From: Fasciola hepatica
Lineage: Eukaryota > Platyhelminthes > Trematoda > Plagiorchiida > Fasciolidae
Length of the DNA: 64,000 nt
NCBI GenBank assembly: GCA_948099385.1
Contig: CANUEZ040000198.1
Coordinates: forward strand, 1,874,501 to 1,938,500
Direction of reading: 5' to 3'
Shown: one piece after another, positions 2,989 to 64,000 of the stretch
How positions within the stretch are numbered: the stretch's first letter is position 1
Layout of the letters: each line of letters starts with the position of its first letter
The notes under the pieces: generated by a model
What the model saw: the letters and a program-made list of their open reading frames with translations, nothing else
Told to the model about the DNA's origin: nothing
Databases searched by the model: none
Program-made: the position numbers and the translations under genes

Positions 2989-3018
2989 TTTGTTTGTCTT
3001 GCACGACATATGTTTGCG

Positions 3019-32061: not shown

Positions 32062-32069
32062 TATAAAAG
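32062..32069 (+). promoter_or_regulatory. TATA box of the right gene head
   Basis: TATAAAAG, 31-38 bp upstream of the preferred ATG at 32100. A start site at the usual distance would leave a very short leader. The context is identical in the left arm (3019-3026). Confidence 0.6.
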
Positions 32070-32099
32070 CGCAAACATATGTCGTGCAAGACAAACAAA

Positions 32100-32157: not shown

Positions 32158-33750
32158 GTAAGTGCAATTGAAATTAGTTACGCATGACTGATGACTCACA
32201 GTACCAAACAGGAAAGTATTTCTAGAACATGCCATTCACTAACATAGTTATCATGCACAATGTGTTGGTTGATTTTCGTAGTGTGATAGGTTTGCATTTG
32301 GTCAAATGAATGCTACAAAACAATGAAGCTATCCAGTTTACCTGCTTACGATGGGCGATTTCTCCTGATATCTTCATATTGTGCGTAATAACACGAGGTT
32401 AGGAAGGGAGGAGAAGGCTACTAAATATCAGAGCTAAAAGATTGTTCATTCTGAATAACTTGCAGGTATATGATGCCCCATCTATCGCAGCTAGTTTAAA
32501 AGCATAAAGCTGAGGATTAAACACCAAAAGACATTCGCAAAGGGACCCAGAACAACAAAGTTGTACCTTCTCACAATTAAATGGAATTACTGGATTTCAG
32601 TTACCCAAAACTCCATATCTTGTTTGTCATTTTTTTTAAAAGGAATAGTGTTTCGGTGCACTCAGGATACGTTTGATTGAAAAAGCTTTTGAGACAGGAC
32701 TCCCAATGTTATTACTGTAAATCAACTCACAGTCTGAAGGTGACATGACGCGGGTAGAATCCAGTAGATCGTACAAACTCACAAAACGTCGAGGAGGAGT
32801 ATTGGTGAAAGAGGCTTGGACACAGTATGTAAAACTGGCCAGTAAGAACAGCTTCCTTCGTTTTTTATTTACATGTGCACAGGTACTGTCAAAAACGATG
32901 CATATGATTGTTTGATAAGCACGTTTTGTTCGCATTGATAGCAGCGAAAATACAGAATCTGAATGTTTTATGTCGATGATAAACAGGACTGGGTGGCTTC
33001 ATTTTATGACAGTAGCCAGTGATCTGTTTGTATGCGTTGAATAAATATACTCAGGGTGCAGACAAAGCCTTATTTTCACCATCACCAGTTGACCACAACT
33101 ATGATGGAATGCGAGCTTCCAAGCGAAAGCCAAACGAGATTTACTCGCGTTAAATTACCCGAAACATTATGAACAACACAACATTCATACAGAGTATCAA
33201 CCATTTGGTCTACCTTCATTCATTCATCCCCCCAGCAGACAGCCATCTATGTTCATAACTGGAAGATGAAATCATAATTTTACAAATCTAACAGTGAAGA
33301 GTGTACAGACGAATCATTCGATAAGGGTATATTTTTATAAAGCTGTCCTGAAATACCATGAAGCGTACTCCCAAAAACCGGTTTCTTACTTGGGTGACTT
33401 ATTTCTACTGAACTCGACGATATTTTCAGCTCAGACGGTGAAGATCTTCCCACTTATCGAAGTGCCTCTAACTAAAGTCCAACAACAAAACTAAACGTGT
33501 GTTCCTCTGATCCAAATCAATAATGAGACACCGGTATTTGGCGAAATAATTTTTCGGAGGAAATTCCTAAGTCATATAACTCTTACTGAGCTTACCTCGG
33601 CTCATCATGAACCAAACAGCTATATGAGAAAACCGCTCATCTTTGAATCGACGGGATTCGTTATTTGAATTTTGTGGTGCAATCGGCACTTACCGTCCTC
33701 TGTTGGTGTGTTATGCGCCCTTCGTATCTCGTGACACTAGTCACATTTAG
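32158..33750 (+). other. Putative first intron of the right gene; no firm exon
   Basis: No cassette with both good splice sites was found here. One phase-compatible open stretch starts after ACAAATCTAACAG (33295) and runs open to a TAA at 33494. It could be an alternative terminal exon (V-K-S-V-Q-T-N-H-S-I-R at its start), but nothing else supports it. The left arm carries the same frame with one change (Q for P). Confidence 0.4.
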
Positions 33751-33777
33751 AATTTCCACCAGCTTGTGCAAAAAGGA
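33751..33777 (+). CDS. Candidate 27-nt micro-exon (right gene)
   Basis: A 27-nt segment follows CACATTTAG and precedes the consensus donor GTAAGTT. It is a multiple of three and open in the phase of exon 1, reading E-F-P-P-A-C-A-K-R. A downstream AG (33762) would give a 15-nt version, also a multiple of three. The acceptor tract is only moderately pyrimidine-rich. Confidence 0.45.
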
Positions 33778-33985
33778 GTAAGTTATCCTAAGAATATTCT
33801 CATCCTGGATCAAGGAAGTTGATTTTCAACAATGTTTTGAGGTTACTGCGCATACAGTCATCTTATTTCCCGAACTGTTGGATCACCTACTTTTAAAACA
33901 ATGTTTGTCCGGGGGGTTGCATTGTGATTCTCTCTATCACTTGTGCCTCTCTTCAGCAGAAGCCTCTGGACAGAATTAGATTCAG

Positions 33986-34043: not shown

Positions 34044-34498
34044 GTGAAATTCCACGGAAATAACGAAAATAAATTTTGCCATTAATGAGGCATAGAAATA
34101 GTTTTGACACGCGCAAATTCTGAGGCAAATTCGAAATTTAACTACATTATATTTGGTCATCATCATATGAAGTAGATTAAAATCACATAATATAGAAAAC
34201 CAAATAATAGAAAACATTATCCTGTTGATATCCAACGTACAGCAAAATAAACAAAAACATGGCGGGAAAATTGACAGCCACAAAAACATTGGAGACAGAA
34301 AATAAAGCCTTTTAACAGCAATTACAACAACGGTTGTATTATTCAGCAGAACGAAGAAATGCGAAAGAAAAATGAGGGGAAAAATATAAGTTGAAGGGAA
34401 AAAAGTTCATAAAAAAAAGATATCATATATTAAAGCCGGATACAGCGAAAAGAAAAAGAAAAATGATGACACAAATTCCACAATTTTTCCCCAAACAG

Positions 34499-34519
34499 CA
34501 CCAACAAAATATCAAAAAG
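34499..34519 (+). CDS. Candidate 21-nt micro-exon preceding the array
   Basis: It follows CAATTTTTCCCCAAACAG, a good acceptor, and precedes GTGAGAAAT. It has the same length as the satellite cassette and a donor of the same GTGAG type. It is open in all phases (S-T-N-K-I-S-K in the phase left by 33986-34043; A-P-T-K-Y-Q-K if entered directly from exon 1). It sits 377 bp before the first array exon, and that intron's 3' part is satellite sequence, so this looks like the edge module of the amplified series. Confidence 0.5.
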
Positions 34520-34896
34520 GTGAGAAATTATATTGAAAAATGAAAACAAGTAAAGTGGGGAAAAAGGTATATTCGAGAAAAGCAGGGGGAAAATGAACAT
34601 AGGATTTGTTTGGCAGCGAAAAGGAGTCTCTCATATATTCCCATTAGATAGATCGAACGAAAAGTAAACAAAGCAAACTGAATTGTTCCATTTCTCTCAC
34701 TGGTCGCATTCGTGCACAAATCATTTGAAAATTCAACTGTGCCTGTAGACAAGAGAGAACCGATTCGCTCTCATTCTACCATATCTAATCTCACTCTAAT
34801 CAAATACGAATATTATTATTCAAGTATGCTCACTCTCATTTGATCGGATACGTTAATCAATGTACATTGATCGTTTCTCATCTTTCTTGATTGTAG

Positions 34897-37800
34897 AAGC
34901 AGAGAAAAAGGAAGGAGGTGAGTTGTGTTATTGATCATGTTGCAGTTTGGTCTTTTTCATTTGTTCCACATGATTCACTTGACGGTGGGTGTGTAACAAT
35001 AAGGATCATGCTGCTGTGTTCTCATCCCAATTTGATTCGTCGGTTTGGCGCAACAACAACAACGAGCACATTGCATTTGACTACTCAACTGTGTGCAGTA
35101 GACGAACACTTTTCCCAATTGGTTTCTTTATGCACACTGATTTGCTAAAGCACATAAACACGATCCGGTTGTATATTGGAATTGAAAATGACAGACGATT
35201 TGTTGACACTGAAAATTAGTCTCTCATATATTCCCATTAGATAGATCGAACGAAAAGTAAACAAAGCAAACTGAATTGTTCCATTTCTCTCACTGGTCGC
35301 ATTCGTGCACAAATCATTTGAAAATTCAACTGTGCCTGTAGACAAGAGAGAACCGATTCGCTCTCATTCTACCATATCTAATCTCACTCTAATCAAATAC
35401 GAATATTATTATTCAAGTATGCTCACTCTCATTTGATCGGATACGTTAATCAATGTACATTGATCGTTTCTCATCTTTCTTGATTGTAGAAGCAGAGAAA
35501 AAGGAAGGAGGTGAGTTGTGTTATTGATCATGTTGCAGTTTGGTCTTTTTCATTTGTTCCACATGATTCACTTGACGGTGGGTGTGTAACAATAAGGATC
35601 ATGCTGCTGTGTTCTCGTCCCAATTTGATTCGTCTGTTTGGCGCAACAACAACAACGAGCACATTGCATTTGACTACTCAACTGTGTGCAGTAGACGAAC
35701 ACTTTTCCCAATTGGTTTCTTTATGCACACTGATTTGCTAAAGCACATAAACACGATCCGGTTGTATATTGGAATTGAAAATGACAGACGATTTGTTGGC
35801 ACTGAAAATTAGTCTCTCATATATTCCCATTAGATAGATCGAACGAAAAGTAAACAAAGCAAACTGAATTGTTCCATTTCTCTCACTGGTCGCATTCGTG
35901 CACAAATCATTTGAAAATTCAACTGTGCCTGTAGACAAGAGAGAACCGATTCGCTCTCATTCTACCATATCTAATCTCACTCTAATCAAATACGAATATT
36001 ATCATTCAAGTATGCTCACTCTCATTTGATCGGATACGTTAATCAATGTACATTGATCGTTTCTCATCTTTCTTGATTGTAGAAGCAGAGAAAAAGGAAG
36101 GAGGTGAGTTGTGTTATTGATCATGTTGCAGTTTGGTCTTTTTCATTTGTTCCACATGATTCACTTGACGGTGGGTGTGTAACAATAAGGATCATGCTGC
36201 TGTGTTCTCATCCCAATTTGATTCGTCTGTTTGGCGCAACAACAACAACGAGCACATTGCATTTGACTACTCAACTGTGTGCAGTAGACGAACACTTTTC
36301 CCAATTGGTTTCTTTATGCACACTGATTTGCTAAAGCACATAAACACGATCCGGTTGTATATTGGAATTGAAAATGACAGACGATTTGTTGGCACTGAAA
36401 ATTAGTCTCTCATATATTCCCATTAGAAAGATCGAACGAAAAGTAAACAAAGCAAACTGAATTGTTCCATTTCTCTCACTGGTCGCATTCGTGCACAAAT
36501 CATTTCAAAATTCAACTGTGCCTGTAGACAAGAGAGAACCGATTCGCTCTCATTCTACCATATCTAATCTCACTCTAATCAAATACGAATATTATTATTC
36601 AAGTATGCTCACTCTCATTTGATCGGATACGTTAATCAATGTACATTGATCGTTTCTCATCTTTCTTGATTGTAGAAGCAGAGAAAAAGGAAGGAGGTGA
36701 GTTGTGTTATTGATCATGTTGCAGTTTGGTCTTTTTCATTTGTTCCACATGATTCACTTGACGGTGGGTGTGTAACAATAAGGATCATGCTGCTGTGTTC
36801 TCATCCCAATTTGATTCGTCTGTTTGGCACAACAACAACAACGAGCACATTGCATTTGACTACTCAACTGTGTGCAGTAGACGAACACTTTTCCCAATTG
36901 GTTTCTTTATGCACACTGATTTGCTAAAGCACATAAACACGATCCGGTTGTATATTGGAATTGAAAATGACAGACAATTTGTTGGCACTGAAAATTAGTC
37001 TCTCATATATTCCCATTAGATAGATCGAACGAAAAGTAAACAAAGCAAACTGAATTGTTCCATTTCTCTCACTGGTCGCATTCGTGCACAAATCATTTGA
37101 AAATTCAACTGTGCCTGTAGACAAGAGAGAACCGATTCGCTCTCATTCTACCATATCTAATCTCACTCTAATCAAATACGAATATTATTATTCAAATATG
37201 CTCACTCTCATTTGATCGGATACGTCAATCAATGTACATTGTTCGTTTCTCATCTTTCTTGATTGTAGAAGCAGAGAAAAAGGAAGGAGGTGAGTTGTGT
37301 TATTGATCATGTTGCAGTTTGGTCTTTTTCATTTGTTCCACATGATTCACTTGACGGTGGGTGTGTAACAATAAGGATCATGCTGCTGTGTTCTCGTCCC
37401 AATTTGATTCGTCTGTTTGGCGCAACAACAACAACGAGCACATTGCATTTGACTACTCAACTGTGTGCAGTAGACGAACACTTTTCCCAATTGGTTTCTT
37501 TATGCACACTGATTTGCTAAAGCACATAAACACGATCCGGTTGTATATTGGAATTGAAAATGACAGACGATTTGTTGGCACTGAAAATTAGTCTCTCATA
37601 TATTCCCATTAGATAGATCGAAAGAAAAGTAAACAAAGCAAACTGAATTGTTCCATTTCTCTAACTGGTCGCATTCGTGCACAAATCATTTGAAAATTCA
37701 ACTGTGCCTGTAGACAAGAGAGAACCGATTCGCTCTCATTCTACCATATCTAATCTCACTCTAATCAAATACGAATATTATTATTCAAGTATACTCACTC

Positions 37801-40800
37801 TCGTTTGATCGGATACGTCAATCAATGTACATTGTTCGTTTCTCATCTTTCTTGATTGTAGAAGCAGAGAAAAAGGAAGGAGGTGAGTTGTGTTATTGAT
37901 CATGTTGCAGTTTGGTCTTTTTCATTTGTTCCACATGATTCACTTGACGGTGGGTGTGTAACAATAAGGATCATGCTGCTGTGTTCTCATCCCAATTTGA
38001 TTCGTCTGTTTGGCGCAACAACAACAACGAGCACATTGCATTTGACTACTCAACTGTGTGCAGTAGACGAACACTTTTCCCAATTGGTTTCTTTATGCAC
38101 ACTGATTTGCTAAAGCACATAAACACGATCCGGTTGTATATTGGAATTGAAAATGACAGACGATTTGTTGGCACTGAAAATTAGTCTCTCATATATTCCC
38201 ATTAGAAAGATCGAACGAAAAGTAAACAAAGCAAACTGAATTGTTCCATTTCTCTAACTGGTCGCATTCGTGCACAAATCATTTCAAAATTCAACTGTGC
38301 CTGTAGACAAGAGAGAACCGATTCGCTCTCATTCTACCATATCTAATCTCACTCTAATCAAATACGAATATTATTATTCAAGTATGCTCACTCTCATTTG
38401 ATCGGATACGTCAATCAATGTACATTGTTCGTTTCTCATCTTTCTTGATTGTAGAAGCAGAGAAAAAGGAAGGAGGTGAGTTGTGTTATTGATCATGTTG
38501 CAGTTTGGTCTTTTTCATTTGTTCCACATGATTCACTTGACGGTGGGTGTGTAACAATAAGGATCATGCTGCTGTGTTCTCATCCCAATTTGATTCGTCT
38601 GTTTGGCGCAACAACAACAACGAGCACATTGCATTTGACTACTCAACTGTGTGCAGTAGACGAACACTTTTCCCAATTGGTTTCTTTATGCACACTGATT
38701 TGCTAAAGCACATAAACACGATCCGGTTGTATATTGGAATTGAAAATGACAGACAATTTGTTGGCACTGAAAATTAGTCTCTCATATATTCCCATTAGAT
38801 AGATCGAACGAAAAGTAAACAAAGCAAACTGAATTGTTCCATTTCTCTCACTGGTCGCATTCGTGCACAAATCATTTGAAAATTCAACTGTGCCTGTAGA
38901 CAAGAGAGAACCGATTCGCTCTCATTCTACCATATCTAATCTCACTCTAATCAAATACGAATATTATTATTCAAGTATGCTCACTCTCATTTGATCGGAT
39001 ACGTTAATCAATGTACATTGATCGGTTCTCATCTTTCTTGATTGTAGAAGCAGAGAAAAAGGAAGGAGGTGAGTTGTGTTATTGATCATGTTGCAGTTTG
39101 GTCTTTTTCATTTGTTCCACATGATTCACTTGACGGTGGGTGTGTAACAATAAGGATCATGCTGCTGTGTTCTCATCCCAATTTGATTCGTCTGTTTGGC
39201 GCAACAACAACAACGAGCACATTGCATTTGACTACTCAACTGTGTGCAGTAGACGAACACTTTTCCCAATTGGTTTCTTTATGCACACTGATTTGCTAAA
39301 GCACATTAACACGATCCGGTTGTATATTGGAATTGAAAATGACAGACGATTTGTTGGCACTGAAAATTAGTCTCTCATATATTCCCATTAGATAGATCGA
39401 ACGAAAAGTAAACAAAGCAAACTGAATTGTTCCATTTCTCTAACTGGTCGCATTCGTGCACAAATCATTTGAAAATTCAACTGTGCCTGTAGACAAGAGA
39501 GAACCGATTCGCTCTCATTCTACCATATCTAATCTCACTCTAATCAAATACGAATATTATTATTCAAGTATGCTCACTCTCGTTTGATCGGATACGTCAA
39601 TCAATGTACATTGATCGTTTCTCATCTTTCTTGATTGTAGAAGCAGAGAAAAAGGAAGGAGGTGAGTTGTGTTATTGATCATGTTGCAGTTTGGTCTTTT
39701 TCATTTGTTCCACATGATTCACTTGACGGTGAGTGTGTAACAATAAGGATCATGCTGCTGTGTTCTCGTCCCAATTTGATTCGTCTGTTTGGCGCAACAA
39801 CAACAACGAGCACATTGCATTTGACTACTCAACTGTGTGCAGTAGACGAACACTTTTCCCAATTGGTTTCTTTATGCACACTGATTTGCTAAAGCACATA
39901 AACACGATCCGGTTGTATATTGGAATTGAAAATGACAGACGATTTGTTGGCACTGAAAATTAGTCTCTCATATATTCCCATTAGAAAGATCGAACGAAAA
40001 GTAAACAAAGCAAACTGAATTGTTCCATTTCTCTCACTGGTCGCATTCGTGCACAAATCATTTCAAAATTCAACTGTGCCTGTAGACAAGAGAGAACCGA
40101 TTCGCTCTCATTCTACCATATCTAATCTCACTCTAATCAAATACGAATATTATTATTCAAGTATGCTCACTCTCATTTGATCGGATACGTCAATCAATGT
40201 ACATTGTTCGTTTCTCATCTTTCTTGATTGTAGAAGCAGAGAAAAAGGAAGGAGGTGAGTTGTGTTATTGATCATGTTGCAGTTTGGTCTTTTTCATTTG
40301 TTCCACATGATTCACTTGACGGTGGGTGTGTAACAATAAGGATCATGCTGCTGTGTTCTCATCCCAATTTGATTCGTCTGTTTGGCGCAACAACAACAAC
40401 GAGCACATTGCATTTGACTACTCAACTGTGTGCAGTAGACGAACACTTTTCCCAATTGGTTTCTTTATGCACACTGATTTGCTAAAGCACATAAACACGA
40501 TCCGGTTGTATATTGGAATTGAAAATGACAGACGATTTGTTGGCACTGAAAATTAGTCTCTCATATATTCCCATTAGATAGATCGAACGAAAAGTAAACA
40601 AAGCAAACTGAATTGTTCCATTTCTCTAACTGGTCGCATTCGTGCACAAATCATTTGAAAATTCAACTGTGCCTGTAGACAAGAGAGAACCGATTCGCTC
40701 TCATTCTACCATATCTAATCTCACTCTAATCAAATACGAATATTATTATTCAAGTATGCTCACTCTCATTTGATCGGATACGTCAATCAATGTACATTGA

Positions 40801-43800
40801 TCGTTTCTCATCTTTCTTGATTGTAGAAGCAGAGGAAAAGGAAGGAGGTGAGTTGTGTTATTGATCATGTTGCAGTTTGGTCTTTTTCATTTGTTCCACA
40901 TGATTCACTTGACGGTGGGTGTGTAACAATAAGGATCATGCTGCTGTGTTCTCATCCCAATTTGATTCGTCTGTTTGGCGCAACAACAACAACGAGCACA
41001 TTGCATTTGACTACTCAACTGTGTGCAGTAGACGAACACTTTTCCCAATTGGTTTCTTTATGCACACTGATTTGCTAAAGCACATAAACACGATCCGGTT
41101 GTATATTGGAATTGAAAATGACAGACGATTTGTTGGCACTGAAAATTAGTCTCTCATATATTCCAATTAGATAGATCGAACGAAAAGTAAACAAAGCAAA
41201 CTGAATTGTTCCATTTCTCTCACTGGTCGCATTCGTGCACAAATCATTTGAAAATGCAACTGTGCCTGTAGATAAGAGAGAACCGATTCGCTCTCATTCT
41301 ACCATATCTAATCTCACTCTAATCAAATACGAATATTATTATTCAAGTATGCTCACTCTCATTTGATCGGATACGTCAATCAATGTACATTGTTCGTTTC
41401 TCATCTTTCTTGATTGTAGAAGCAGAGAAAAAGGAAGGAGGTGAGTTGTGTTATTGATCATGTTGCAGTTTGGTCTTTTTCATTTGTTCCACATGATTCA
41501 CTTGACGGTGGGTGTGTAACAATAAGGATCATGCTGCTGTGTTCTCATCCCAATTTGATTCGTCTGTTTGGCGCAACAACAACAACGAGCACATTGCATT
41601 TGACTACTCAACTGTGTGCAGTAGACGAACACTTTTCCCAATTGGTTTCTTTATGCACACTGATTTGCTAAAGCACATAAACACGATCCGGTTGTATATT
41701 GGAATTGAAAATGACAGACGATTTGTTGGCACTGAAAATTAGTCTCTCATATATTCCCATTAGATAGATCGAACGAAAAGTAAACAAAGCAAACTGAATT
41801 GTTCCATTTCTCTAACTGGTCGCATTCGTGCACAAATCATTTGAAAATTCAACTGTGCCTGTAGACAAGAGAGAACCGATTCGCTCTCATTCTACCATAT
41901 CTAATCTCACTCTAATCAAATACGAATATTATTATTCAAGTATGCTCACTCTCATTTGATCGGATACGTCAATCAATGTACATTGTTCGTTTCTCATCTT
42001 TCTTGATTGTAGAAGCAGAGAAAAAGGAAGGAGGTGAGTTGTGTTATTGATCATGTTGCAGTTTGGTCTTTTTCATTTGTTCCACATGATTCACTTGACG
42101 GTGGGTGTGTAACAATAAGGATCATGCTGCTGTGTTCTCATCCCAATTTGATTCGTCTGTTTGGCGCAACAACAACAACGAGCACATTGCATTTGACTAC
42201 TCAACTGTGTGCAGTAGACGAACACTTTTCCCAATTGGTTTCTTTATGCACACTGATTTGCTAAAGCACATAAACACGATCCGGTTGTATATTGGAATTG
42301 AAAATGACAGACAATTTGTTGGCACTGAAAATTAGTCTCTCATATATTCCAATTAGATAGATCGAAAGAAAAGTAAACAAAGCAAACTGAATTGTTCCAT
42401 TTCTCTCACTGGTCGCATTCGTGCACAAATCATTTGAAAATTCAACTGTGCCTGTAGACAAGAGAGAACCGATTCGCTCTCATTCTACCATATCTAATCT
42501 CACTCTAATCAAATACGAATATTATTATTCAAGTATGCTCACTCTCATTTGATCGGATACGTCAATCAATGTACATTGTTCGTTTCTCATCTTTCTTGAT
42601 TGTAGAAGCAGAGAAAAAGGAAGGAGGTGAGTTGTGTTATTGATCATGTTGCAGTTTGGTCTTTTTCATTTGTTCCACATGATTCACTTGACGGTGGGTG
42701 TGTAACAATAAGGATCATGCTGCTGTGTTCTCATCCCAATTTGATTCGTCTGTTTGGCGCAACAACAACAACGAGCACATTGCATTTGACTACTCAACTG
42801 TGTGCAGTAGACGAACACTTTTCCCAATTGGTTTCTTTATGCACACTGATTTGCTAAAGCACATAAACACGATCCGGTTGTATATTGGAATTGAAAATGA
42901 CAGACGATTTGTTGGCACTGAAAATTAGTCTCTCATATATTCCCATTAGATAGATCGAACGAAAAGTAAACAAAGCAAACTGAATTGTTCCATTTCTCTA
43001 ACTGGTCGCATTCGTGCACAAATCATTTGAAAATTCAACTGTGCCTGTAGACAAGAGAGAACCGATTCGCTCTCATTCTACCATATCTAATCTCACTCTA
43101 ATCAAATACGAATATTATTATTCAAGTATGCTCACTCTCATTTGATCGGATACGTCAATCAATGTACATTGTTCGTTTCTCATCTTTCTTGATTGTAGAA
43201 GCAGAGAAAAAGGAAGGAGGTGAGTTGTGTTATTGATCATGTTGCAGTTTGGTCTTTTTCATTTGTTCCACATGATTCACTTGACGGTGGGTGTGTAACA
43301 ATAAGGATCATGCTGCTGTGTTCTCGTCCCAATTAGATTCGTCTGTTTGGCGCAACAACAACAACGAGCACATTGCATTTGACTACTCAACTGTGTGCAG
43401 TAGACGAACGCTTTTCCCAATTGGTTTCTTTATGCACACTGATTTGCTAAAGCACATAAACACGATCCGGTTGTATATTGGAATTGAAAATGACAGACGA
43501 TTTGTTGGCACTGAAAATTAGTCTCTCATATATTCCCATTAGATAGATCGAACGAAAAGTAAACAAAGCAAACTGAATTGTTCCATTTCTCTCACTGGTC
43601 GCATTCGTGCACAAATCATTTGAAAATTCAACTGTGCCTGTAGACAAGAGAGAACCGATTCGCTCTCATTCTACCATATCTAATCTCACTCTAATCAAAT
43701 ACGAATATTATTATTCAAGTATGCTCACTCTCATTTGATCGGATACGTCAATCAATGTACATTGTTCGTTTCTCATCTTTCTTGATTGTAGAAGCAGAGA

Positions 43801-46800
43801 AAAAGGAAGGAGGTGAGTTGTGTTATTGATCATGTTGCAGTTTGGTCTTTTTCATTTGTTCCACATGATTCACTTGACGGTGGGTGTGTAACAATAAGGA
43901 TCATGCTGCTGTGTTCTCGTCCCAATTAGATTCGTCTGTTTGGCGCAACAACAACAACGAGCACATTGCATTTGACTACTCAACTGTGTGCAGTAGACGA
44001 ACGCTTTTCCCAATTGGTTTCTTTATGCACACTGATTTGCTAAAGCACATAAACACGATCCGGTTGTATATTGGAATTGAAAATGACAGACGATTTGTTG
44101 GCACTGAAAATTAGTCTCTCATATATTCCCATTAGATAGATCGAACGAAAAGTAAACAAAGCAAACTGAATTGTTCCATTTCTCTCACTGGTCGCATTCG
44201 TGCACAAATCATTTGAAAATTCAACTGTGCCTGTAGACAAGAGAGAACCGATTCGCTCTCATTCTACCATATCTAATCTCACTCTAATCAAATACGAATA
44301 TTATTATTCAAGTATGCTCACTCTCATTTGATCGGATACGTCAATCAATGTACATTGTTCGTTTCTCATCTTTCTTGATTGTAGAAGCAGAGAAAAAGGA
44401 AGGAGGTGAGTTGTGTTATTGATCATGTTGCAGTTTGGTCTTTTTCATTTGTTCCACATGATTCACTTGACGGTGGGTGTGTAACAATAAGGATCATGCT
44501 GCTGTGTTCTCATCCCAATTTGATTCGTCTGTTTGGCGCAACAACAACAACGAGCACATTGCATTTGACTACTCAACTGTGTGCAGTAGACGAACACTTT
44601 TCCCAATTGGTTTCTTTATGCACACTGATTTGCTAAAGCACATAAACACGATCCGGTTGTATATTGGAATTGAAAATGACAGACGATTTGTTGGCACTGA
44701 AAATTGGTCTCTCATATATTCCCATTAGATAGATCGAACGAAAAGTAAACAAAGCAAACTGAATTGTTCCATTTCTCTAACTGGTCGCATTCGTGCACAA
44801 ATCATTTGAAAATTCAACTGTGCCTGTAGACAAGAGAGAACCGATTCGCTCTCATTCTACCATATCTAATCTCACTCTAATCAAATACGAATATTATTAT
44901 TCAAGTATGCTCACTCTCATTTGATCGGATACGTTAATCAATGTACATTGTTCGTTTCTCATCTTTCTTGATTGTAGAAGCAGAGAAAAAGGAAGGAGGT
45001 GAGTTGTGTTATTGATCATGTTGCAGTTTGGTCTTTTTCATTTGTTCCACATGATTCACTTGACGGTGGGTGTGTAACAATAAGGATCATGCTGCTGTGT
45101 TCTCATCCCAATTTGATTCGTCTGTTTGGCGCAACAACAACAACGAGCACATTGCATTTGACTACTCAACTGTGTGCAGTAGACGAACACTTTTCCCAAT
45201 TGGTTTCTTTATGCACACTGATTTGCTAAAGCACATAAACACGATCCGGTTGTATATTGGAATTAAAAATGACAGACAATTTGTTGGCACTGAAAATTAG
45301 TCTCTCATATATTCCCATTAGATAGATCGAACGAAAAGTAAACAAAGCAAACTGAATTGTTCCATTTCTCTAACTGGTCGCATTCGTGCACAAATCATTT
45401 GAAAATTCAACTGTGCCTGTAGACAAGAGCGAACCGATTCGCTCTCATTCTACCATATCTAATCTCACTCTAATCAAATACGAATATTATTATTCAAGTA
45501 TGCTCACTCTCATTTGATCGGATACGTCAATCAATGTACATTGTTCGTTTCTCATCTTTCTTGATTGTAGAAGCAGAGAAAAAGGAAGGAGGTGAGTTGT
45601 GTTATTGATCATGTTGCAGTTTGGTCTTTTTCATTTGTTCCACATGATTCACTTGACGGTGGGTGTGTAACAATAAGGATCATGCTGCTGTGTTCTCATC
45701 CCAATTTGATTCGTCTGTTTGGCGCAACAACAACAACGAGCACATTGCATTTGACTACTCAACTGTGTGCAGTAGACGAACACTTTTCCCAATTGGTTTC
45801 TTTATGCACACTGATTTGCTAAAGCACATAAACACGATCCGGTTGTATATTGGAATTGAAAATGACAGACGATTTGTTGGCACTGAAAATTAGTCTCTCA
45901 TATATTCCAATTAGATAGATCGAACGAAAAGTAAACAAAGCAAACTGAATTGTTCCATTTCTCTCACTGGTCGCATTCGTGCACAAATCATTTGAAAATG
46001 CAACTGTGCCTGTAGACAAGAGAGAACCGATTCGCTCTCATTCTACCATATCTAATCTCACTCTAATCAAATACGAATATTATTATTCAAGTATGCTCAC
46101 TCTCATTTGATCGGATACGTCAATCAATGTACATTGTTCGTTTCTCATCTTTCTTGATTGTAGAAGCAGAGAAAAAGGAAGGAGGTGAGTTGTGTTATTG
46201 ATCATGTTGCAGTTTGGTCTTTTTCATTTGTTCCACATGATTCACTTGACGGTGGGTGTGTAACAATAAGGATCATGCTGCTGTGTTCTCATCCCAATTT
46301 GATTCGTCTGTTTGGCGCAACAACAACAACGAGCACATTGCATTTGACTACTCAACTGTGTGCAGTAGACGAACACTTTTCCCAATTGGTTTCTTTATGC
46401 ACACTGATTTGCTAAAGCACATAAACACGATCCGGTTGTATATTGGAATTGAAAATGACAGACGATTTGTTGGCACTGAAAATTAGTCTCTCATATATTC
46501 CCATTAGATAGATCGAACGAAAAGTAAACAAAGCAAACTGAATTGTTCCATTTCTCTAACTGGTCGCATTCGTGCACAAATCATTTGAAAATTCAACTGT
46601 GCCTGTAGACAAGAGAGAACCGATTCGCTCTCATTCTACCATATCTAATCTCACTCTAATCAAATACGAATATTATTATTCAAGTATGCTCACTCTCATT
46701 TGATCGGATACGTCAATCAATGTACATTGTTCGTTTCTCATCTTTCTTGATTGTAGAAGCAGAGAAAAAGGAAGGAGGTGAGTTGTGTTATTGATCATGT

Positions 46801-52800: not shown

Positions 52801-55800
52801 CTGCTGTGTTCTCATCCCAATTTGATTCGTCTGTTTGGCGCAACAACAACAACGAGCACATTGCATTTGACTACTCAACTGTGTGCAGTAGACGAACACT
52901 TTTCCCAATTGGTTTCTTTATGCACACTGATTTGCTAAAGCACATAAACACGATCCGGTTGTATATTGGAATTGAAAATGACAGACGATTTGTTGGCACT
53001 GAAAATTAGTCTCTCATATATTCCCATTAGATAGATCGAACGAAAAGTAAACAAAGCAAACTGAATTGTTCCATTTCTCTCACTGGTCGCATTCGTGCAC
53101 AAATCATTTGAAAATTCAACTGTGCCTGTAGACAAGAGAGAACCGATTCGCTCTCATTCTACCATATCTAATCTCACTCTAATCAAATACGAATATTATT
53201 ATTCAAGTATGCTCACTCTCATTTGATCGGATACGTCAATCAATGTACATTGTTCGTTTCTCATCTTTCTTGATTGTAGAAGCAGAGAAAAAGGAAGGAG
53301 GTGAGTTGTGTTATTGATCATGTTGCAGTTTGGTCTTTTTCATTTGTTCCACATGATTCACTTGACGGTGGGTGTGTAACAATAAGGATCATGCTGCTGT
53401 GTTCTCATCCCAATTTGATTCGTCTGTTTGGCGCAACAACAACAACGAGCACATTGCATTTGACTACTCAACTGTGTGCAGTAGACGAACACTTTTCCCA
53501 ATTGGTTTCTTTATGCACACTGATTTGCTAAAGCACATAAACACGATCCGGTTGTATATTGGAATTGAAAATGACAGACGATTTGTTGGCACTGAAAATT
53601 AGTCTCTCATATATTCCCATTAGATAGATCGAACGAAAAGTAAACAAAGCAAACTGAATTGTTCCATTTCTCTCACTGGTCGCATTCGTGCACAAATCAT
53701 TTGAAAATTCAACTGTGCCTGTAGACAAGAGAGAACCGATTCGCTCTCATTCTACCATATCTAATCTCACTCTAATCAAATACGAATATTATTATTCAAG
53801 TATGCTCACTCTCATTTGATCGGATACGTCAATCAATGTACATTGTTCGTTTCTCATCTTTCTTGATTGTAGAAGCAGAGAAAAAGGAAGGAGGTGAGTT
53901 GTGTTATTGATCATGTTGCAGTTTGGTCTATTTCATTTGTTCCACATGATTCACTTGACGGTGGGTGTGTAACAATAAGGATCATGCTGCTGTGTTCTCA
54001 TCCCAATTTGATTCGTCTGTTTGGCGCAACAACAACAACGAGCACATTGCATTTGACTACTCAACTGTGTGCAGTAGACGAACACTTTTCCCAATTGGTT
54101 TCTTTATGCACACTGATTTGCTAAAGCACATAAACACGATCCGGTTGTATATTGGAATTGAAAATGACAGACGATTTGTTGGCACTGAAAATTAGTCTCT
54201 CATATATTCCCATTAGATAGATCGAACGAAAAGTAAACAAAGCAAACTGAATTGTTCCATTTCTCTAACTGGTCGCATTCGTGCACAAATCATTTGAAAA
54301 TTCAACTGTGCCTGTAGACAAGAGAGAACCGATTCGCTCTCATTCTACCATATCTAATCTCACTCTAATCAAATACGAATATTATTATTCAAGTATGCTC
54401 ACTCTCATTTGATCGGATACGTTAATCAATGTACATTGATCGTTTCTCATCTTTCTTGATTGTAGAAGCAGAGAAAAAGGAAGGAGGTGAGTTGTGTTAT
54501 TGATCATGTTGCAGTTTGGTCTTTTTCATTTGTTCCACATGATTCACTTGACGGTGGGTGTGTAACAATAAGGATCATGCTGCTGTGTTCTCATCCCAAT
54601 TTGATTCGTCTGTTTGGCGCAACAACAACAACGAGCACATTGCATTTGACTACTCAACTGTGTGCAGTAGACGAACACTTTTCCCAATTGGTTTCTATAT
54701 GCACACTGATTTGCTAAAGCACATAAACACGATCCGGTTGTATATTGGAATTGAAAATGACAGACGATTTGTTGGCACTGAAAATTAGTCTCTCATATAT
54801 TCCCATTAGATAGATCGAACGAAAAGTAAACAAAGCAAACTGAATTGTTCCATTTCTCTAACTGGTCGCATTCGTGCACAAATCATTTGAAAATTCAACT
54901 GTGCCTGTAGACAAGAGAGAACCGATTCGCTCTCATTCTACCATATCTAATCTCACTCTAATCAAATACGAATATTATTATTCAAGTATGCTCACTCTCA
55001 TTTGATCGGATACGTCAATCAATGTACATTGTTCGTTTCTCATCTTTCTTGATTGTAGAAGCAGAGAAAAAGGAAGGAGGTGAGTTGTGTTATTGATCAT
55101 GTTGCAGTTTGGTCTTTTTCATTTGTTCCACATGATTCACTTGACGGTGGGTGTGTAACAATAAGGATCATGCTGCTGTGTTCTCATCCCAATTTGATTC
55201 GTCTGTTTGGCGCAACAACAACAACGAGCACATTGCATTTGACTACTCAACTGTGTGCAGTAGACGAACACTTTTCCCAATTGGTTTCTTTATGCACACT
55301 GATTTGCTAAAGCACATAAACACGATCCGGTTGTATATTGGAATTGAAAATGACAGACGATTTGTTGGCACTGAAAATTAGTCTCTCATATATTCCCATT
55401 AGATAGATCGAACGAAAAGTAAACAAAGCAAACTGAATTGTTCCATTTCTCTAACTGGTCGCATTCGTGCACAAATCATTTGAAAATTCAACTGTGCCTG
55501 TAGACAAGAGAGAACCGATTCGCTCTCATTCTACCATATCTAATCTCACTCTAATCAAATACGAATATTATTATTCAAGTATGCTCACTCTCATTTGATC
55601 GGATACGTCAATCAATGTACATTGTTCGTTTCTCATCTTTCTTGATTGTAGAAGCAGAGAAAAAGGAAGGAGGTGAGTTGTGTTATTGATCATGTTGCAG
55701 TTTGGTCTTTTTCATTTGTTCCACATGATTCACTTGACAGTGGGTGTGTAACAATAAGGATCATGCTGCTGTGTTCTCATCCCAATTTGATTCGTCTGTT

Positions 55801-58800
55801 TGGCGCAACAACAACAACGAGCACATTGCATTTGACTACTCAACTGTGTGCAGTAGACGAACACTTTTCCCAATTGGTTTCTTTATGCACACTGATTTGC
55901 TAAAGCACATAAACACGATCCGGTTGTATATTGGAATTGAAAATGACAGACGATTTGTTGGCACTGAAAATTAGTCTCTCATATATTCCCATTAGATAGA
56001 TCGAACGAAAAGTAAACAAAGCAAACTGAATTGTTCCATTTCTCTAACTGGTCGCATTCGTGCACAAATCATTTGAAAATTCAACTGTGCCTGTAGACAA
56101 GAGAGAACCGATTCGCTCTCATTCTACCATATCTAATCTCACTCTAATCAAATACGAATATTATTATTCAAGTATGCTCACTCTCATTTGATCGGATACG
56201 TTAATCAATGTACATTGATCGTTTCTCATCTTTCTTGATTGTAGAAGCAGAGAAAAAGGAAGGAGGTGAGTTGTGTTATTGATCATGTTGCAGTTTGGTC
56301 TTTTTCATTTGTTCCACATGATTCACTTGACGGTGGGTGTGTAACAATAAGGATCATGCTGCTGTGTTCTCATCCCAATTTGATTCGTCTGTTTGGCGCA
56401 ACAACAACAACGAGCACATTGCATTTGACTACTCAACTGTGTGCAGTAGACGAACACTTTTCCCAATTGGTTTCTATATGCACACTGATTTGCTAAAGCA
56501 CATAAACACGATCCGGTTGTATATTGGAATTGAAAATGACAGACGATTTGTTGGCACTGAAAATTAGTCTCTCATACATTCCCATTAGATAGATCGAACG
56601 AAAAGTAAACAAAGCAAACTGAATTGTTCCATTTCTCTAACTGGTCGCATTCGTGCACAAATCATTTGAAAATTCAACTGTGCCTGTAGACAAGAGAGAA
56701 CCGATTCGCTCTCATTCTACCATATCTAATCTCACTCTAATCAAATACGAATATTATTATTCAAGTATGCTCACTCTCATTTGATCGGATACGTCAATCA
56801 ATGTACATTGTTCGTTTCTCATCTTTCTTGATTGTAGAAGCAGAGAAAAAGGAAGGAGGTGAGTTGTGTTATTGATCATGTTGCAGTTTGGTCTTTTTCA
56901 TTTGTTCCACATGATTCACTTGACGGTGGGTGTGTAACAATAAGGATCATGCTGCTGTGTTCTCATCCCAATTTGATTCGTCTGTTTGGCGCAACAACAA
57001 CAACGAGCACATTGCATTTGACTACTCAACTGTGTGCAGTAGACGAACACTTTTCCCAATTGGTTTCTTTATGCACACTGATTTGCTAAAGCACATAAAC
57101 ACGATCCGGTTGTATATTGGAATTGAAAATGACAGACGATTTGTTGGCACTGAAAATTAGTCTCTCATATATTCCCATTAGATAGATCGAACGAAAAGTA
57201 AACAAAGCAAACTGAATTGTTCCATTTCTCTAACTGGTCGCATTCGTGCACAAATCATTTGAAAATTCAACTGTGCCTGTAGACAAGAGAGAACCGATTC
57301 GCTCTCATTCTACCATATCTAATCTCACTCTAATCAAATACGAATATTATTATTCAAGTATGCTCACTCTCATTTGATCGGATACGTCAATCAATGTACA
57401 TTGTTCGTTTCTCATCTTTCTTGATTGTAGAAGCAGAGAAAAAGGAAGGAGGTGAGTTGTGTTATTGATCATGTTGCAGTTTGGTCTTTTTCATTTGTTC
57501 CACATGATTCACTTGACGGTGGGTGTGTAACAATAAGGATCATGCTGCTGTGTTCTCATCCCAATTTGATTCGTCTGTTTGGCGCAACAACAACAACGAG
57601 CACATTGCATTTGACTACTCAACTGTGTGCAGTAGACGAACACTTTTCCCAATTGGTTTCTTTATGCACACTGATTTGCTAAAGCACATAAACACGATCC
57701 GGTTGTATATTGGAATTGAAAATGACAGACGATTTGTTGGCACTGAAAATTAGTCTCTCATATATTCCCATTAGATAGATCGAACGAAAAGTAAACAAAG
57801 CAAACTGAATTGTTCCATTTCTCTAACTGGTCGCATTCGTGCACAAATCATTTGAAAATTCAACTGTGCCTGTAGACAAGAGAGAACCGATTCGCTCTCA
57901 TTCTACCATATCTAATCTCACTCTAATCAAATACGAATATTATTATTCAGGTATGCTCACTCTCATTTGATCGGATACGTCAATCAATGTACATTGATCG
58001 TTTCTCATCTTTCTTGATTGTAGAAGCAGAGAAAAAGGAAGGAGGTGAGTTGTGTTATTGATCATGTTGCAGTTTGGTCTTTTTCATTTGTTCCACATGA
58101 TTCACTTGACGGTGGGTGTGTAACAATAAGGATCATGCTGCTGTGTTCTCATCCCAATTTGATTCGTCTGTTTGGCGCAACAACAACAACGAGCACATTG
58201 CATTTGACTACTCAACTGTGTGCAGTAGACGAACACTTTTCCCAATTGGTTTCTTTATGCACACTGATTTGCTAAAGCACATAAACACGATCCGGTTGTA
58301 TATTGGAATTGAAAATGACAGACGATTTGTTGGCACTGAAAATTAGTCTCTCATATATTCCCATTAGATAGATCGAACGAAAAGTAAACAAAGCAAACTG
58401 AATTGTTCCATTTCTCTCACTGGTCGCATTCGTGCACAAATCATTTGAAAATTCAACTGTGCCTGTAGACAAGAGAGAACCGATTCGCTCTCATTCTACC
58501 ATATCTAATCTCACTCTAATCAAATACGAATATTATTATTCAAGTATGCTCACTCTCGTTTGATCGGATACGTCAATCAATGTACATTGTTCGTTTCTCA
58601 TCTTTCTTGATTGTAGAAGCAGAGAAAAAGGAAGGAGGTGAGTTGTGTTATTGATCATGTTGCAGTTTGGTCTTTTTCATTTGTTCCACATGATTCACTT
58701 GACGGTGGGTGTGTAACAATAAGGATCATGCTGCTGTGTTCTCATCCCAATTTGATTCGTCTGTTTGGCGCAACAACAACAACGAGCACATTGCATTTGA

Positions 58801-61800
58801 CTACTCAACTGTGTGCAGTAGACGAACACTTTTCCCAATTGGTTTCTATATGCACACTGATTTGCTAAAGCACATAAACACGATCCGGTTGTATATTGGA
58901 ATTGAAAATGACAGACGATTTGTTGGCACTGAAAATTAGTCTCTCATATATTCCCATTAGATAGATCAAACGAAAAGTAAACAAAGCAAACTGAATTGTT
59001 CCATTTCTCTAACTGGTCGCATTCGTGCACAAATCATTTGAAAATTCAACTGTGCCTGTAGACAAGAGAGAACCGATTCGCTCTCATTCTACCATATCTA
59101 ATCTCACTCTAATCAAATACGAATATTATTATTCAAGTATGCTCACTCTCATTTGATCGGATACGTCAATCAATGTACATTGTTCGTTTCTCATCTTTCT
59201 TGATTGTAGAAGCAGAGAAAAAGGAAGGAGGTGAGTTGTGTTATTGATCATGTTGCAGTTTGGTCTTTTTCATTTGTTCCACATGATTCACTTGACGGTG
59301 GGTGTGTAACAATAAGGATCATGCTGCTGTGTTCTCATCCCAATTTGATTTGTCTGTTTGGCGCAACAACAACAACGAGCACATTGCATTTGACTACTCA
59401 ACTGTGTGCAGTAGACGAACACTTTTCCCAATTGGTTTCTTTATGCACACTGATTTGCTAAAGCACATAAACACGATCCGGTTGTATATTGGAATTGAAA
59501 ATGACAGACGATTTGTTGGCACTGAAAATTAGTCTCTCATATATTCCCATTAGATAGATCGAACGAAAAGTAAACAAAGCAAACTGAATTGTTCCATTTC
59601 TCTCACTGGTCGCATTCGTGCACAAATCATTTGAAAATTCAACTGTGCCTGTAGACAAGAGAGAACCGATTCGCTCTCATTCTACCATATCTAATCTCAC
59701 TCTAATCAAATACGAATATTATTATTCAAGTATGCTCACTCTCATTTGATCGGATACGTCAATCAATGTACATTGTTCGTTTCTCATCTTTCTTGATTGT
59801 AGAAGCAGAGAAAAAGGAAGGAGGTGAGTTGTGTTATTGATCATGTTGCAGTTTGGTCTTTTTCATTTGTTCCACATGATTCACTTGACGGTGGGTGTGT
59901 AACAATAAGGATCATGCTGCTGTGTTCTCATCCCAATTTGATTCGTCTGTTTGGCGCAACAACAACAACGAGCACATTGCATTTGACTACTCAACTGTGT
60001 GCAGTAGACGAACACTTTTCCCAATTGGTTTCTTTATGCACACTGATTTGCTAAAGCACATAAACACGATCCGGTTGTATATTGGAATTGAAAATGACAG
60101 ACGATTTGTTGGCACTGAAAATTAGTCTCTCATATATTCCCATTAGATAGATCGAACGAAAAGTAAACAAAGCAAACTGAATTGTTCCATTTCTCTAACT
60201 GGTCGCATTCGTGCACAAATCATTTGAAAATTCAACTGTGCCTGTAGACAAGAGAGAACCGATTCGCTCTCATTCTACCATATCTAATCTCACTCTAATC
60301 AAATACGAATATTATTATTCAAGTATGCTCACTCTCATTTGATCGGATACGTCAATCAATGTACATTGTTCGTTTCGCATCTTTCTTGATTGTAGAAGCA
60401 GAGAAAAAGGAAGGAGGTGAGTTGTGTTATTGATCATGTTGTAGTTTGGTCTTTTTCATTTGTTCCACATGATTCACTTGACGGTGGGTGTGTAACAATA
60501 AGGCTTATGCTGCTGTGTTCTCATCCCAATTTGATTCGTCTGTTTGGCGCAACAACAACAACGAGCACATTGCATTTGACTACTCAACTGTGTGCAGTAG
60601 ACGAACACTTTTCCCAATTGGTTTCTTTATGCACACTGATTTGCTAAAGCACATAAACACGATCCGGTTGTATATTGGAATTGAAAATGACAGACGATTT
60701 GTTGGCACTGAAAATTAGTCTCTCATACATTCCCATTAGATAGATCGAACGAAAAGTAAACAAAGCAAACTGAATTGTTCCATTTCTCTAACTGGTCGCA
60801 TTCGTGCACAAATCATTTGAAAATTCAACTGTGCCTGTAGACAAGAGAGAACCGATTCGCTCTCATTCTACCATATCTAATCTCACTCTAATCAAATACG
60901 AATATTATTATTCAAGTATGCTCACTCTCATTTGATCGGATACGTCAATCAATGTACATTGTTCGTTTCTCATCTTTCTTGATTGTAGAAGCAGAGAAAA
61001 AGGAAGGAGGTGAGTTGTGTTATTGATCATGTTGCAGTTTGGTCTTTTTCATTTGTTCCACATGATTCACTTGACGGTGGGTGTGTAACAATAAGGATCA
61101 TGCTGCTGTGTTCTCATCCCAATTTGATTCGTCTGTTTGGCGCAACAACAACAACGAGCACATTGCATTTGACTACTCAACTGTGTGCAGTAGACGAACA
61201 CTTTTCCCAATTGGTTTCTTTATGCACACTGATTTGCTAAAGCACATAAACACGATCCGGTTGTATATTGGAATTGAAAATGACAGACGATTTGTTGGCA
61301 CTGAAAATTAGTCTCTCATATATTCCCATTAGATAGATCAAACGAAAAGTAAACAAAGCAAACTGAATTGTTCTCTTTCTCTAACTGGTCGCATTCGTGC
61401 ACAAATCATTTGAAAATTCAACTGTGCCTGTAGACAAGAGAGAACCGATTCGCTCTCATTCTACCATATCTAATCTCACTCTAATCAAATACGAATATTA
61501 TTATTCAAGTATGCTCACTCTCATTTGATCGGATACGTCAATCAATGTACATTGTTCGTTTCTCATCTTTCTTGATTGTAGAAGCAGAGAAAAAGGAAGG
61601 AGGTGAGTTGTGTTATTGATCATGTTGCAGTTTGGTCTTTTTCATTTGTTCCACATGATTCACTTGACAGTGGGTGTGTAACAATAAGGATCATGCTGCT
61701 GTGTTCTCATCCCAATTTGATTCGTCTGTTTGGCGCAACAACAACAACGAGCACATTGCATTTGACTACTCAACTGTGTGCAGTAGACGAACACTTTTCC

Positions 61801-63974
61801 CAATTGGTTTCTTTATGCACACTGATTTGCTAAAGCACATAAACACGATCCGGTTGTATATTGGAATTGAAAATGACAGACGATTTGTTGGCACTGAAAA
61901 TTAGTCTCTCATATATTCCCATTAGATAGATCGAACGAAAAGTAAACAAAGCAAACTGAATTGTTCCATTTCTCTAACTGGTCGCATTCGTGCACAAATC
62001 ATTTGAAAATTCAACTGTGCCTGTAGACAAGAGAGAACCGATTCGCTCTCATTCTACCATATCTAATCTCACTCTAATCAAATACGAATATTATTATTCA
62101 AGTATGCTCACTCTCATTTGATCGGATACGTCAATCAATGTACATTGTTCGTTTCTCATCTTTCTTGATTGTAGAAGCAGAGAAAAAGGAAGGAGGTGAG
62201 TTGTGTTATTGATCATGTTGTAGTTTGGTCTTTTTCATTTGTTCCACATGATTCACTTGACGGTGGGTGTGTAACAATAAGGATTATGCTGCTGTGTTCT
62301 CATCCCAATTTGATTCGTCTGTTTGGCGCAACAACAACAACGAGCACATTGCATTTGACTACTCAACTGTGTGCAGTAGACGAACACTTTTCCCAATTGG
62401 TTTCTTTATGCACACTGATTTGCTAAAGCACATAAACACGATCCGGTTGTATATTGGAATTGAAAATGACAGACGATTTGTTGGCACTGAAAATTAGTCT
62501 CTCATACATTCCCATTAGATAGATCGAACGAAAAGTAAACAAAGCAAACTGAATTGTTCCATTTCTCTAACTGGTCGCATTCGTGCACAAATCATTTGAA
62601 AATTCAACTGTGCCTGTAGACAAGAGAGAACCGATTCGCTCTCATTCTACCATATCTAATCTCACTCTAATCAAATACGAATATTATTATTCAAGTATGC
62701 TCACTCTCATTTGATCGGATACGTCAATCAATGTACATTGTTCGTTTCTCATCTTTCTTGATTGTAGAAGCAGAGAAAAAGGAAGGAGGTGAGTTGTGTT
62801 ATTGATCATGTTGCAGTTTGGTCTTTTTCATTTGTTCCACATGATTCACTTGACGGTGGGTGTGTAACAATAAGGATCATGCTGCTGTGTTCTCATCCCA
62901 ATTTGATTCGTCTGTTTGGCGCAACAACAACAACGAGCACATTGCATTTGACTACTCAACTGTGTGCAGTAGACGAACACTTTTCCCAATTGGTTTCTTT
63001 ATGCACACTGATTTGCTAAAGCACATAAACACGATCCGGTTGTATATTGGAATTGAAAATGACAGACGATTTGTTGGCACTGAAAATTAGTCTCTCATAT
63101 ATTCCCATTAGATAGATCAAACGAAAAGTAAACAAAGCAAACTGAATTGTTCTCTTTCTCTAACTGGTCGCATTCGTGCACAAATCATTTGAAAATTCAA
63201 CTGTGCCTGTAGACAAGAGAGAACCGATTCGCTCTCATTCTACCATATCTAATCTCACTCTAATCAAATACGAATATTATTATTCAAGTATGCTCACTCT
63301 CATTTGATCGGATACGTCAATCAATGTACATTGTTCGTTTCTCATCTTTCTTGATTGTAGAAGCAGAGAAAAAGGAAGGAGGTGAGTTGTGTTATTGATC
63401 ATGTTGCAGTTTGGTCTTTTTCATTTGTTCCACATGATTCACTTGACAGTGGGTGTGTAACAATAAGGATCATGCTGCTGTGTTCTCATCCCAATTTGAT
63501 TCGTCTGTTTGGCGCAACAACAACAACGAGCACATTGCATTTGACTACTCAACTGTGTGCAGTAGACGAACACTTTTCCCAATTGGTTTCTTTATGCACA
63601 CTGATTTGCTAAAGCACATAAACACGATCCGGTTGTATATTGGAATTGAAAATGACAGACGATTTGTTGGCACTGAAAATTAGTCTCTCATATATTCCCA
63701 TTAGATAGATCGAACGAAAAGTAAACAAAGCAAACTGAATTGTTCCATTTCTCTAACTGGTCGCATTCGTGCACAAATCATTTGAAAATTCAACTGTGCC
63801 TGTAGACAAGAGAGAACCGATTCGCTCTCATTCTACCATATCTAATCTCACTCTAATCAAATACGAATATTATTATTCAAGTATGCTCACTCTCATTTGA
63901 TCGGATACGTCAATCAATGTACATTGTTCGTTTCTCATCTTTCTTGATTGTAGAAGCAGAGAAAAAGGAAGGAG
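34897..63974 (+). CDS. Series of 50 identical 21-nt micro-exon cassettes
   Basis: Cassettes lie at 34897+593k to 34917+593k for k = 0 to 49. Each begins AAGCAGAGAA and ends GGAAGGAG, preceded by TTTCTCATCTTTCTTGATTG and TAG (pyrimidine-rich acceptor) and followed by GTGAGTTG (near-consensus donor). The exon is pure purine apart from one C, a typical splicing-enhancer composition. It is a multiple of three and open in all phases: R-S-R-E-K-G-R in the phase predicted by 33986-34043, E-A-E-K-K-E-G if entered from exon 1 directly, K-Q-R-K-R-K-E in phase zero. By eye 49 of 50 are identical. Introns would be 572 nt each. Expression is not shown by the sequence. Confidence 0.6.
40827..40847 (+). CDS. 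The single variant micro-exon in the array
   Basis: The eleventh cassette has G for A at its ninth base (AGAGGAAAAG). This is Lys to Glu in the E-A-E-K-K-E-G phase and synonymous (GAA to GGA changes Glu to Gly) only outside it: in the phase-two reading it gives Gly for Glu. The splice sites are unchanged. Confidence 0.6.
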
Positions 63975-64000
63975 GTGAGTTGTGTTATTGATCATGTTGC

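Follow-up and report, generated by a model that had tools for sequence, protein, structure and literature searches.

A Satellite-Scale Array of 21-nt Exons in Fasciola hepatica as the Probable Core of a Micro-Exon Gene

The Right Gene and Its Array

The window analysed here is a stretch of 64,000 nucleotides of Fasciola hepatica DNA (C198:1874501-1938500, C198 being contig CANUEZ040000198.1), and its right-hand part is filled by a 593-bp direct repeat in which every unit carries a 21-nt cassette between splice signals. With a probability of roughly four in five, this array is the middle of a protein-coding fluke micro-exon gene in which one exon–intron module has been amplified to satellite scale. 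The genome searched comprises 1.4998 Gb in 656 contigs; positions without a contig name are those of the window. The parts of this gene, called the right gene, that lie in the window are the following.

32062..32067, plus strand: TATAAA, 38 nt before the ATG of MKP...
32079..32157, plus strand: coding part of exon 1, MSCKTNKMKPILFLIVILCLVYSHQA, encoding a putative signal peptide 2.5 kb upstream of the array and followed by the phase-1 donor GTAAGT
34499..34519, plus strand: predicted first symmetric micro-exon of 21 nt, APTKYQK, read from its splice sites (cag/gtgag edges)
34610..64000, plus strand: the 593-bp exon–intron array, with 50 cassettes in the window, running on to C198:2027231 (187 cassettes)
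34897..34917, plus strand: first 21-nt cassette, EAEKKEG, recurring each 593 bp
40827..40847, plus strand: the 11th cassette, EAEEKEG, the sole variant in the window (one A>G)

The repeat reaches from 34610 to 64000 as 49 full units and 334 nt, with no indels and 0-8 differences per unit against the consensus. Its 50 cassettes have their first bases at 34897 to 63954, and 49 of them read AAGCAGAGAAAAAGGAAGGAG, between a pyrimidine-rich ...TTGATTGTAG and GTGAGT. The initial annotation had described just such units, with a symmetric cassette between a pyrimidine-TAG acceptor and GTGAGT, and its count of at least 50 micro-exons is borne out by 50 in the window and 187 in the whole array. It had also placed a TATA box and a signal-peptide exon 2.5 kb upstream on the same strand, where both are found. 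Its starting point for the array, 34497, proved to be the edge of the separate predicted micro-exon at 34499-34519; the array itself begins at 34610. Tandem Repeats Finder, run at a maximum period of 500, is blind to a repeat of this length.

The coding strand of the window unit contains a single GTRAG, and the cassette is what it bounds, while the opposite strand lacks any YAG-GTRAG pair within 60 nt. Six unit types from the gene family introduced below were examined, and each has a YAG-GTRAG pair enclosing a symmetric cassette at the corresponding place; further pairs occur in three sister modules, one more on the coding strand in the array called P1 and others on the minus strand in L053 and L057. 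The cassette edges in the window unit are more than chance would give.

Beyond the window the picture holds. All 187 cassettes of the right array are 21 nt long, with no stops, frameshifts or indels, and in the frame set by exon 1 they encode 167 EAEKKEG, 13 EAEKKEE, 6 EAKKKEG and 1 EAEEKEG. The TTGATTGTAG/GTGAGT splice edges are unaltered in 185 of the 187, and every donor begins with GT, one of them being GTGGGT. A few units outside the window measure 592 or 594 bp, and the mean pairwise difference among 180 units is 0.74%. A 35-mer taken from the cassette gave 165 genome matches, all on the coding strand, with none on the opposite strand and none for the reversed control; because 165 of the 187 right-array cassettes carry it exactly, all of these matches fall within the right array. 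A single insertion breaks the array; it spans 7,048 bp at C198:1968635-1975682 (L017:135-7182) and contains a 1782-aa antisense frame, which we take to resemble a BEL/Pao-type retrotransposon.

Exon 1 codes for a hydrophobic N-terminus, judged a putative signal peptide by inspection, and its final base, ahead of GTAAGT, is the first of a split codon. At the other end, 865 bp past the array, a last exon lies at C198:2028096 (ttttccag/GAGACATC...) and supplies 24 in-phase residues, GDISRLTDHVALLAFPLKCLRIIH, before a stop; in each of three copies this exon is made up of 24 codons followed by a stop. Both the APTKYQK exon and this last exon are predictions from splice sites, phase and homology. 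If every cassette were used, signal, APTKYQK, 187 heptads and 24-residue tail would make a product of 1,366 residues. The protein searches found no annotated protein of the right gene.

Two 31-nt stretches within the unit, at 34711-34741 and 35063-35093, are 77% alike. They hint at a unit built from two older half-units, and several sister arrays have units of ~1.1 kb.

Spliced-leader (SL) genes of Schistosoma mansoni lie in units of ~595 bp. An array of spliced-leader or other RNA genes was nonetheless rejected, the window holding no Rfam match at gathering score, a weak argument in that platyhelminth SL RNA may lie outside Rfam. Three units searched at E<=5 gave no Rfam match either, nor was any tRNA found. 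A Pfam scan of ten open reading frames of the window at E<=1 returned two weak matches, with E-values of 0.075 and 0.14, that fall short of the curated cut-offs.

The Left Sister Gene

A second copy of the gene head faces away from the first across a large palindrome.

1236..16869: left palindrome arm, bearing the duplicated gene head
18191..33852: right palindrome arm, separated from the left by a 1.3-kb spacer
2931..3009, minus strand: left gene exon 1, a signal exon identical to that of the right gene; residues 1-26 of D915_008604
270..281, minus strand: 12-nt micro-exon of the left gene, GCAACGCAGAAG, GNAE; residues 27-30 of D915_008604
1..204, minus strand: partial first unit of the left array, whose 37 cassettes extend leftward outside the window to C198:1854487
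29742..30029, plus strand, with its mirror at 5059..5346, minus strand: a frame presumably akin to a fragment of a Penelope-like reverse transcriptase, with no significant Pfam match

The inverted arms, ~15.6 kb each, are 99.8-99.9% identical in two main blocks and diverged just outside, which suggests conversion between arms carrying two head-to-head gene copies. A near-perfect palindrome adjoining a satellite is also a typical site of assembly error, and misassembly might have produced both the palindrome and the length of the array. This is very improbable: one 9-kb block of the arms shows 15 mismatches and 2 gaps, the flanks beyond them have diverged, and the left and right arrays are only about 88.5% alike with different unit lengths (~543 bp on the left). 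Of the 37 left cassettes, 36 are identical to the right cassette and the remaining one carries a synonymous change. This identity proves little alone, because the surrounding 327 bp are also 96% identical between the two arrays (314/327).

The left gene is where the predicted exons meet an annotated product. A protein search with the predicted product found P0001, the NCBI entry 'hypothetical protein D915_008604 [Fasciola hepatica]' of 69 aa. With each exon translated separately, the left gene matches it exon by exon at 69 of 69 residues, in five ordered segments: the signal exon (residues 1-26), GNAE, EAEKKEG from one cassette, ERTEATTT from a 24-nt exon at C198:1853401-1853378, and a 24-residue end from C198:1853118. 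The signal, cassette, 24-nt and last exons had been read from splice sites and frame before this protein was found; the 12-nt exon had not been predicted. D915_008604 thus confirms the frame and exon edges of the left gene at the level of a gene model. Its single cassette is what would be expected if the array had collapsed in the source assembly. The N50 of that F. hepatica assembly is given as 161 kb (PMC11484910), and the genes of the F. hepatica Oregon genome are described as called de novo and from evidence (McNulty et al. 2017, PMC5257007).

A Family of Amplified Modules

The promoter and exon 1 gave 40 scored matches in the genome, the two genes of the window included. Exon 1 was read for 21 of the 38 sister places, and the sequence directly downstream for nine (L049, L050, L051, L053-L057, L060); L058 and L059 are array stretches of a tenth sister locus, and L052 surrounds a match to the last exon. 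Of 21 family copies, 15 have TATAAA at -35 to -38. All 20 sister exons end in phase 1 before GT, and 17 of them are open from the ATG. Among 21 aligned signal exons, the 58 coding columns contain no gap openings, the flanks having 10 and 40, and variation is lowest at codon position 2 (0.100, against 0.222 and 0.228 at the others and 0.286 and 0.262 in the flanks).

That the right gene is dead or dying, its array once functional, is improbable. Three sister signal exons are broken (two of 20 by an in-frame TGA, one by lack of an ATG), a retroelement-like insertion sits inside the right array, and the left gene's 24-nt exon has no splice sites at its right-gene counterpart. Against this, all 187 right-gene cassettes are open and in phase, as is its last exon, and the left gene's protein is identical to an annotated F. 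hepatica product.

Eight arrays or clusters together gave a count of at least 865 cassettes, a total to which the L053 array does not contribute.

C198: right array, 187; left array, 37
C198:1.76-1.79M: the P1 array or cluster, 38 exact copies
C52: one array or cluster with 467 exact copies, the first 100 listed all on C52 and the other 367 presumably there
C201: two arrays with the repeat of P0007 (see below), 25 and 27 cassettes
C201:1.06M: one array, 26
C223: one array, 58

In eight of eight cases array and neighbouring signal exon share a strand, and seven of the nine sister loci examined downstream show a cassette. The L053 gene (C222:719519) has a tandem module of period 1178 bp with the cassette ESDKTKEE. 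Five sister signal exons occur on C52, at 1449920, 1590347, 1647490, 1703445 and 1762822, the last four 56-59 kb apart; dividing the 467 copies, each perhaps has about 90 cassettes.

A second gene model comes from C201. Searching with a composite bait of sister cassettes retrieved P0007, an 'unnamed protein product [Fasciola hepatica]' of 72 aa that consists of the family signal peptide, ESQQKPEGE, three ESKQKPEGE and then a different end. Its repeat, back-translated with AG/GT edges in phase 1, gave 52 genome matches, all on the minus strand, with none forward and none for the control. They are confined to C201:576667-603145 (25) and C201:3038896-3067562 (27), spaced 1098-1102 bp apart, and both arrays sit behind sister signal exons. 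The N-terminal 28 residues of P0007 correspond exactly to the signal exon at C201:3070161 and the 27-nt ESQQKPEGE cassette at C201:3068662 on the minus strand; a search of 2.9 kb did not place its last 17 residues. With signal and cassette exact at the head of this array, there is a gene model with four serial cassettes for a sister array, and it confirms serial use at the level of that model. Together, D915_008604 for the left sister and P0007 for another support, at that level, the initial annotation's proposal of a micro-exon gene with an amplified module.

These models also bear on whether the cassettes arose by chance, as a non-coding satellite in which AG...GT happens to frame 21 open nucleotides. 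A short open stretch of this kind is common by itself. The notion is nevertheless hardly credible: the exon-by-exon match to D915_008604 was obtained after the exons had been read and contradicts it for the left gene at gene-model level, and the search with the P0007 repeat returned 52 matches against none in its control.

The modules of different arrays vary in a particular way. Cassettes of 21, 24 or 27 nt occur in the nine modules compared, while among the intron gaps between modules, which are not independent and here exclude C52, only 100 of 339 have a length divisible by three. The window module and that at C201:577k share 38 of the 40 nt immediately preceding the exon, yet the exon has gone from 21 to 27 nt with a changed sequence. 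Splice signals that stay while the exon changes in whole codons are, as far as the sequences can tell, what is expected of a spliced, fast-changing exon. In rechecked loci (L049, L050, L051, L053, L054, L057 and L060), scans open to any length retain the homologous acceptor.

Evidence Against Broad Use of the Cassettes

Several observations weigh against the array being a working part of the gene. The right-array cassette is as variable as the intron, with changes in 3 of 21 columns against 3.8 expected (180 of 187 units), and all three are missense. The C52 array does have invariant stretches, but these are wide and not specific to the cassette. The last exon is not exceptionally conserved relative to its flanks, as 327 of 1437 windows are equally similar, and for this reason its conservation was dropped as strong evidence. 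Codon positions 1 and 3 of the signal exon show nearly the same variation (0.222, 0.228). One of the 37 left cassettes has a broken acceptor, a copy at C201:1.67M has the donor GTGATC, and C222:855k, a further locus matching the last exon, is a single module with no AG at the homologous acceptor place. Two of the nine sister loci, L055 and L056, show no convincing cassette within 3 kb downstream. The cassette lengths carry a bias of their own: those of C52, L053, L054 and L057 were first picked by scans that listed multiples of three only, and that of L058 with a fixed-length pattern. Scans of any length show other YAGs nearby, mostly in frame (15, 18, 57 and 60 nt), with out-of-frame ones at 7 nt in L054, 19 nt in L060 and 50 nt in L053. 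Finally, the D915_008604 model uses one of 37 left cassettes and the P0007 model four of about 28, numbers that do not establish wide inclusion.

Constraint specific to the cassette was sought within the right and C52 arrays, and none was found. Selection on single cassettes is not supported by variation within arrays, because the right cassette varies like the intron, the invariance on C52 is wide and the last exon is ordinary.

These facts lend themselves to a different account, in which a selfish or drift-driven satellite hitch-hikes within an intron of a real gene, most cassettes are skipped and the product contains one to few heptads. The low cassette numbers of the two annotated models agree with it, as does the want of cassette-specific constraint, and the near-identity of the units (0.74%) would be expected of any satellite evolving in concert. 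This account is somewhat unlikely all the same. Amplified modules recur in eight family arrays or clusters, all on the coding strand, with cassettes of 21, 24 or 27 nt; low cassette numbers in the models are expected where older assemblies probably collapsed the arrays; and in SmPoMuc, a Schistosoma mansoni gene family discussed below, transcripts are reported to hold 1-100 repeats (PMC2576457).

A Model for the Amplified Gene

As a micro-exon gene, the right gene would be laid out as a TATA promoter and signal-peptide exon, the first micro-exon, 187 modules and a last exon with a stop. Transcription would most likely start from the TATA promoter and pass through the array with co-transcriptional splicing, each 593-nt module yielding a 572-nt intron and one charged heptad, mostly EAEKKEG. 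The cassette being symmetric and in phase 1, any number could be joined or skipped with the frame kept, so skipping would be harmless to frame. Unequal exchange would change the copy number and gene conversion would homogenise the copies, as the mean difference of 0.74% among units suggests, so that copies would stay alike within an array while the arrays of sister genes diverge. By analogy with schistosome micro-exon genes (MEGs) and SmPoMucs, the family may act at the fluke's secreted surface. The anatomy, the frame, the exon edges, the family and the fit of two sister genes to annotated proteins are observed; we infer whole-array transcription, the number of cassettes per mRNA (and so the product length that the initial annotation tied to it), secretion and function, and these steps draw their support from the two gene models and from the likeness to SmPoMuc.

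The fuller form of the model is tentative, and somewhat short of an even chance. It holds that most of the 187 micro-exons are spliced serially into a secreted polyampholyte of at most ~1,370 residues, its length governed by array copy number, and that a family of at least 865 cassettes varies them in whole-codon steps under shared splice signals, giving copy-number-driven protein variation at the interface between fluke and host. If this is true, splicing would be put to an extreme test by having to recognise some 187 almost identical exons of 21 nt in series. Worms may differ in array length, and with it in the length of the secreted protein, a possible source of antigen variation that could be typed with long reads. 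The array was probably hidden earlier, older assemblies breaking or collapsing such repeats, and it would serve as a warning that fluke genomes can contain satellite-like repeats with a coding role.

Comparison with Known Systems

Two structural traits of MEGs recur in the Fasciola genes. A signal-peptide first exon, judged by its hydrophobic N-terminus, is open from the ATG in 17 of 20 sister copies. Internal symmetric exons with canonical splice sites, of about 6-36 nt in MEGs, are represented by exons of 12, 21, 24 and 27 nt, all in phase 1. The share of coding sequence in micro-exons, 75-80% as a norm for MEGs, is 28% (57/207 nt) in the left model and would be ~96% in the right gene if all 187 were used. 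The protein searches, which detect only relatives sharing exact words, gave no match named as schistosome and several unnamed ones.

The general gene type is shared with the schistosome MEGs, among which MEG-4/Sm10.3 is described with tandem-repeated 27-bp exons and 81-bp repeats; no near-identical exon array of such length was met in the parts of the MEG literature consulted (PMC10526429, PMC5825161, PMC3961193, PMC4015677). Modular spider silk genes also combine tandem exon–intron modules with concerted evolution, as cited for SmPoMuc (PMC2576457), in unrelated animals and proteins. Aphid bicycle genes, as described, form a rapidly evolving family of secreted effectors whose gene structure was used to find relatives. 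They have many, very small exons and, to our knowledge, are not arrays of near-identical ones.

The closest likeness is to SmPoMuc of S. mansoni, whose exon 2 is given as 27 bp long in units of 1022-1037 bp that are >94% identical, with up to ~20 copies per gene (Roger et al. 2008, PMC2576457). In both, as far as that account goes, a signal peptide precedes a repeat domain built from tandem tiny symmetric exons with their introns, in a clustered family under concerted evolution. The C201 arrays, with a 27-nt exon and a unit of ~1.1 kb, agree with it even in size, the likeness being one of description only. The two systems differ in scale, up to ~20 genomic copies per gene against 187 in the Fasciola right gene. 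They also differ in their products, the mucin-type glycosylated repeats of SmPoMuc contrasting with charged heptads such as EAEKKEG, which has neither Ser nor Thr. In gene layout, SmPoMuc has 15 exons with a long conserved 3' set, for which the Fasciola genes have micro-exons and one last exon of 24 codons.

The initial annotation had held such an array to be undescribed. In kind it is known, SmPoMuc exon 2 being an instance in the account cited, and by analogy the Fasciola arrays are a variant of the SmPoMuc/MEG kind and no new category. What stands is the scale and the Fasciola family, both apparently new: no description of such arrays in Fasciola was found in the open-licence literature searched, and a word search of two genome papers (F. 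hepatica 2015, F. gigantica 2021; main text) found neither micro-exon, microexon nor MEG. The Fasciola arrays would extend the SmPoMuc/MEG design, known from blood flukes, to a liver fluke, at roughly ten times the genomic exon number.

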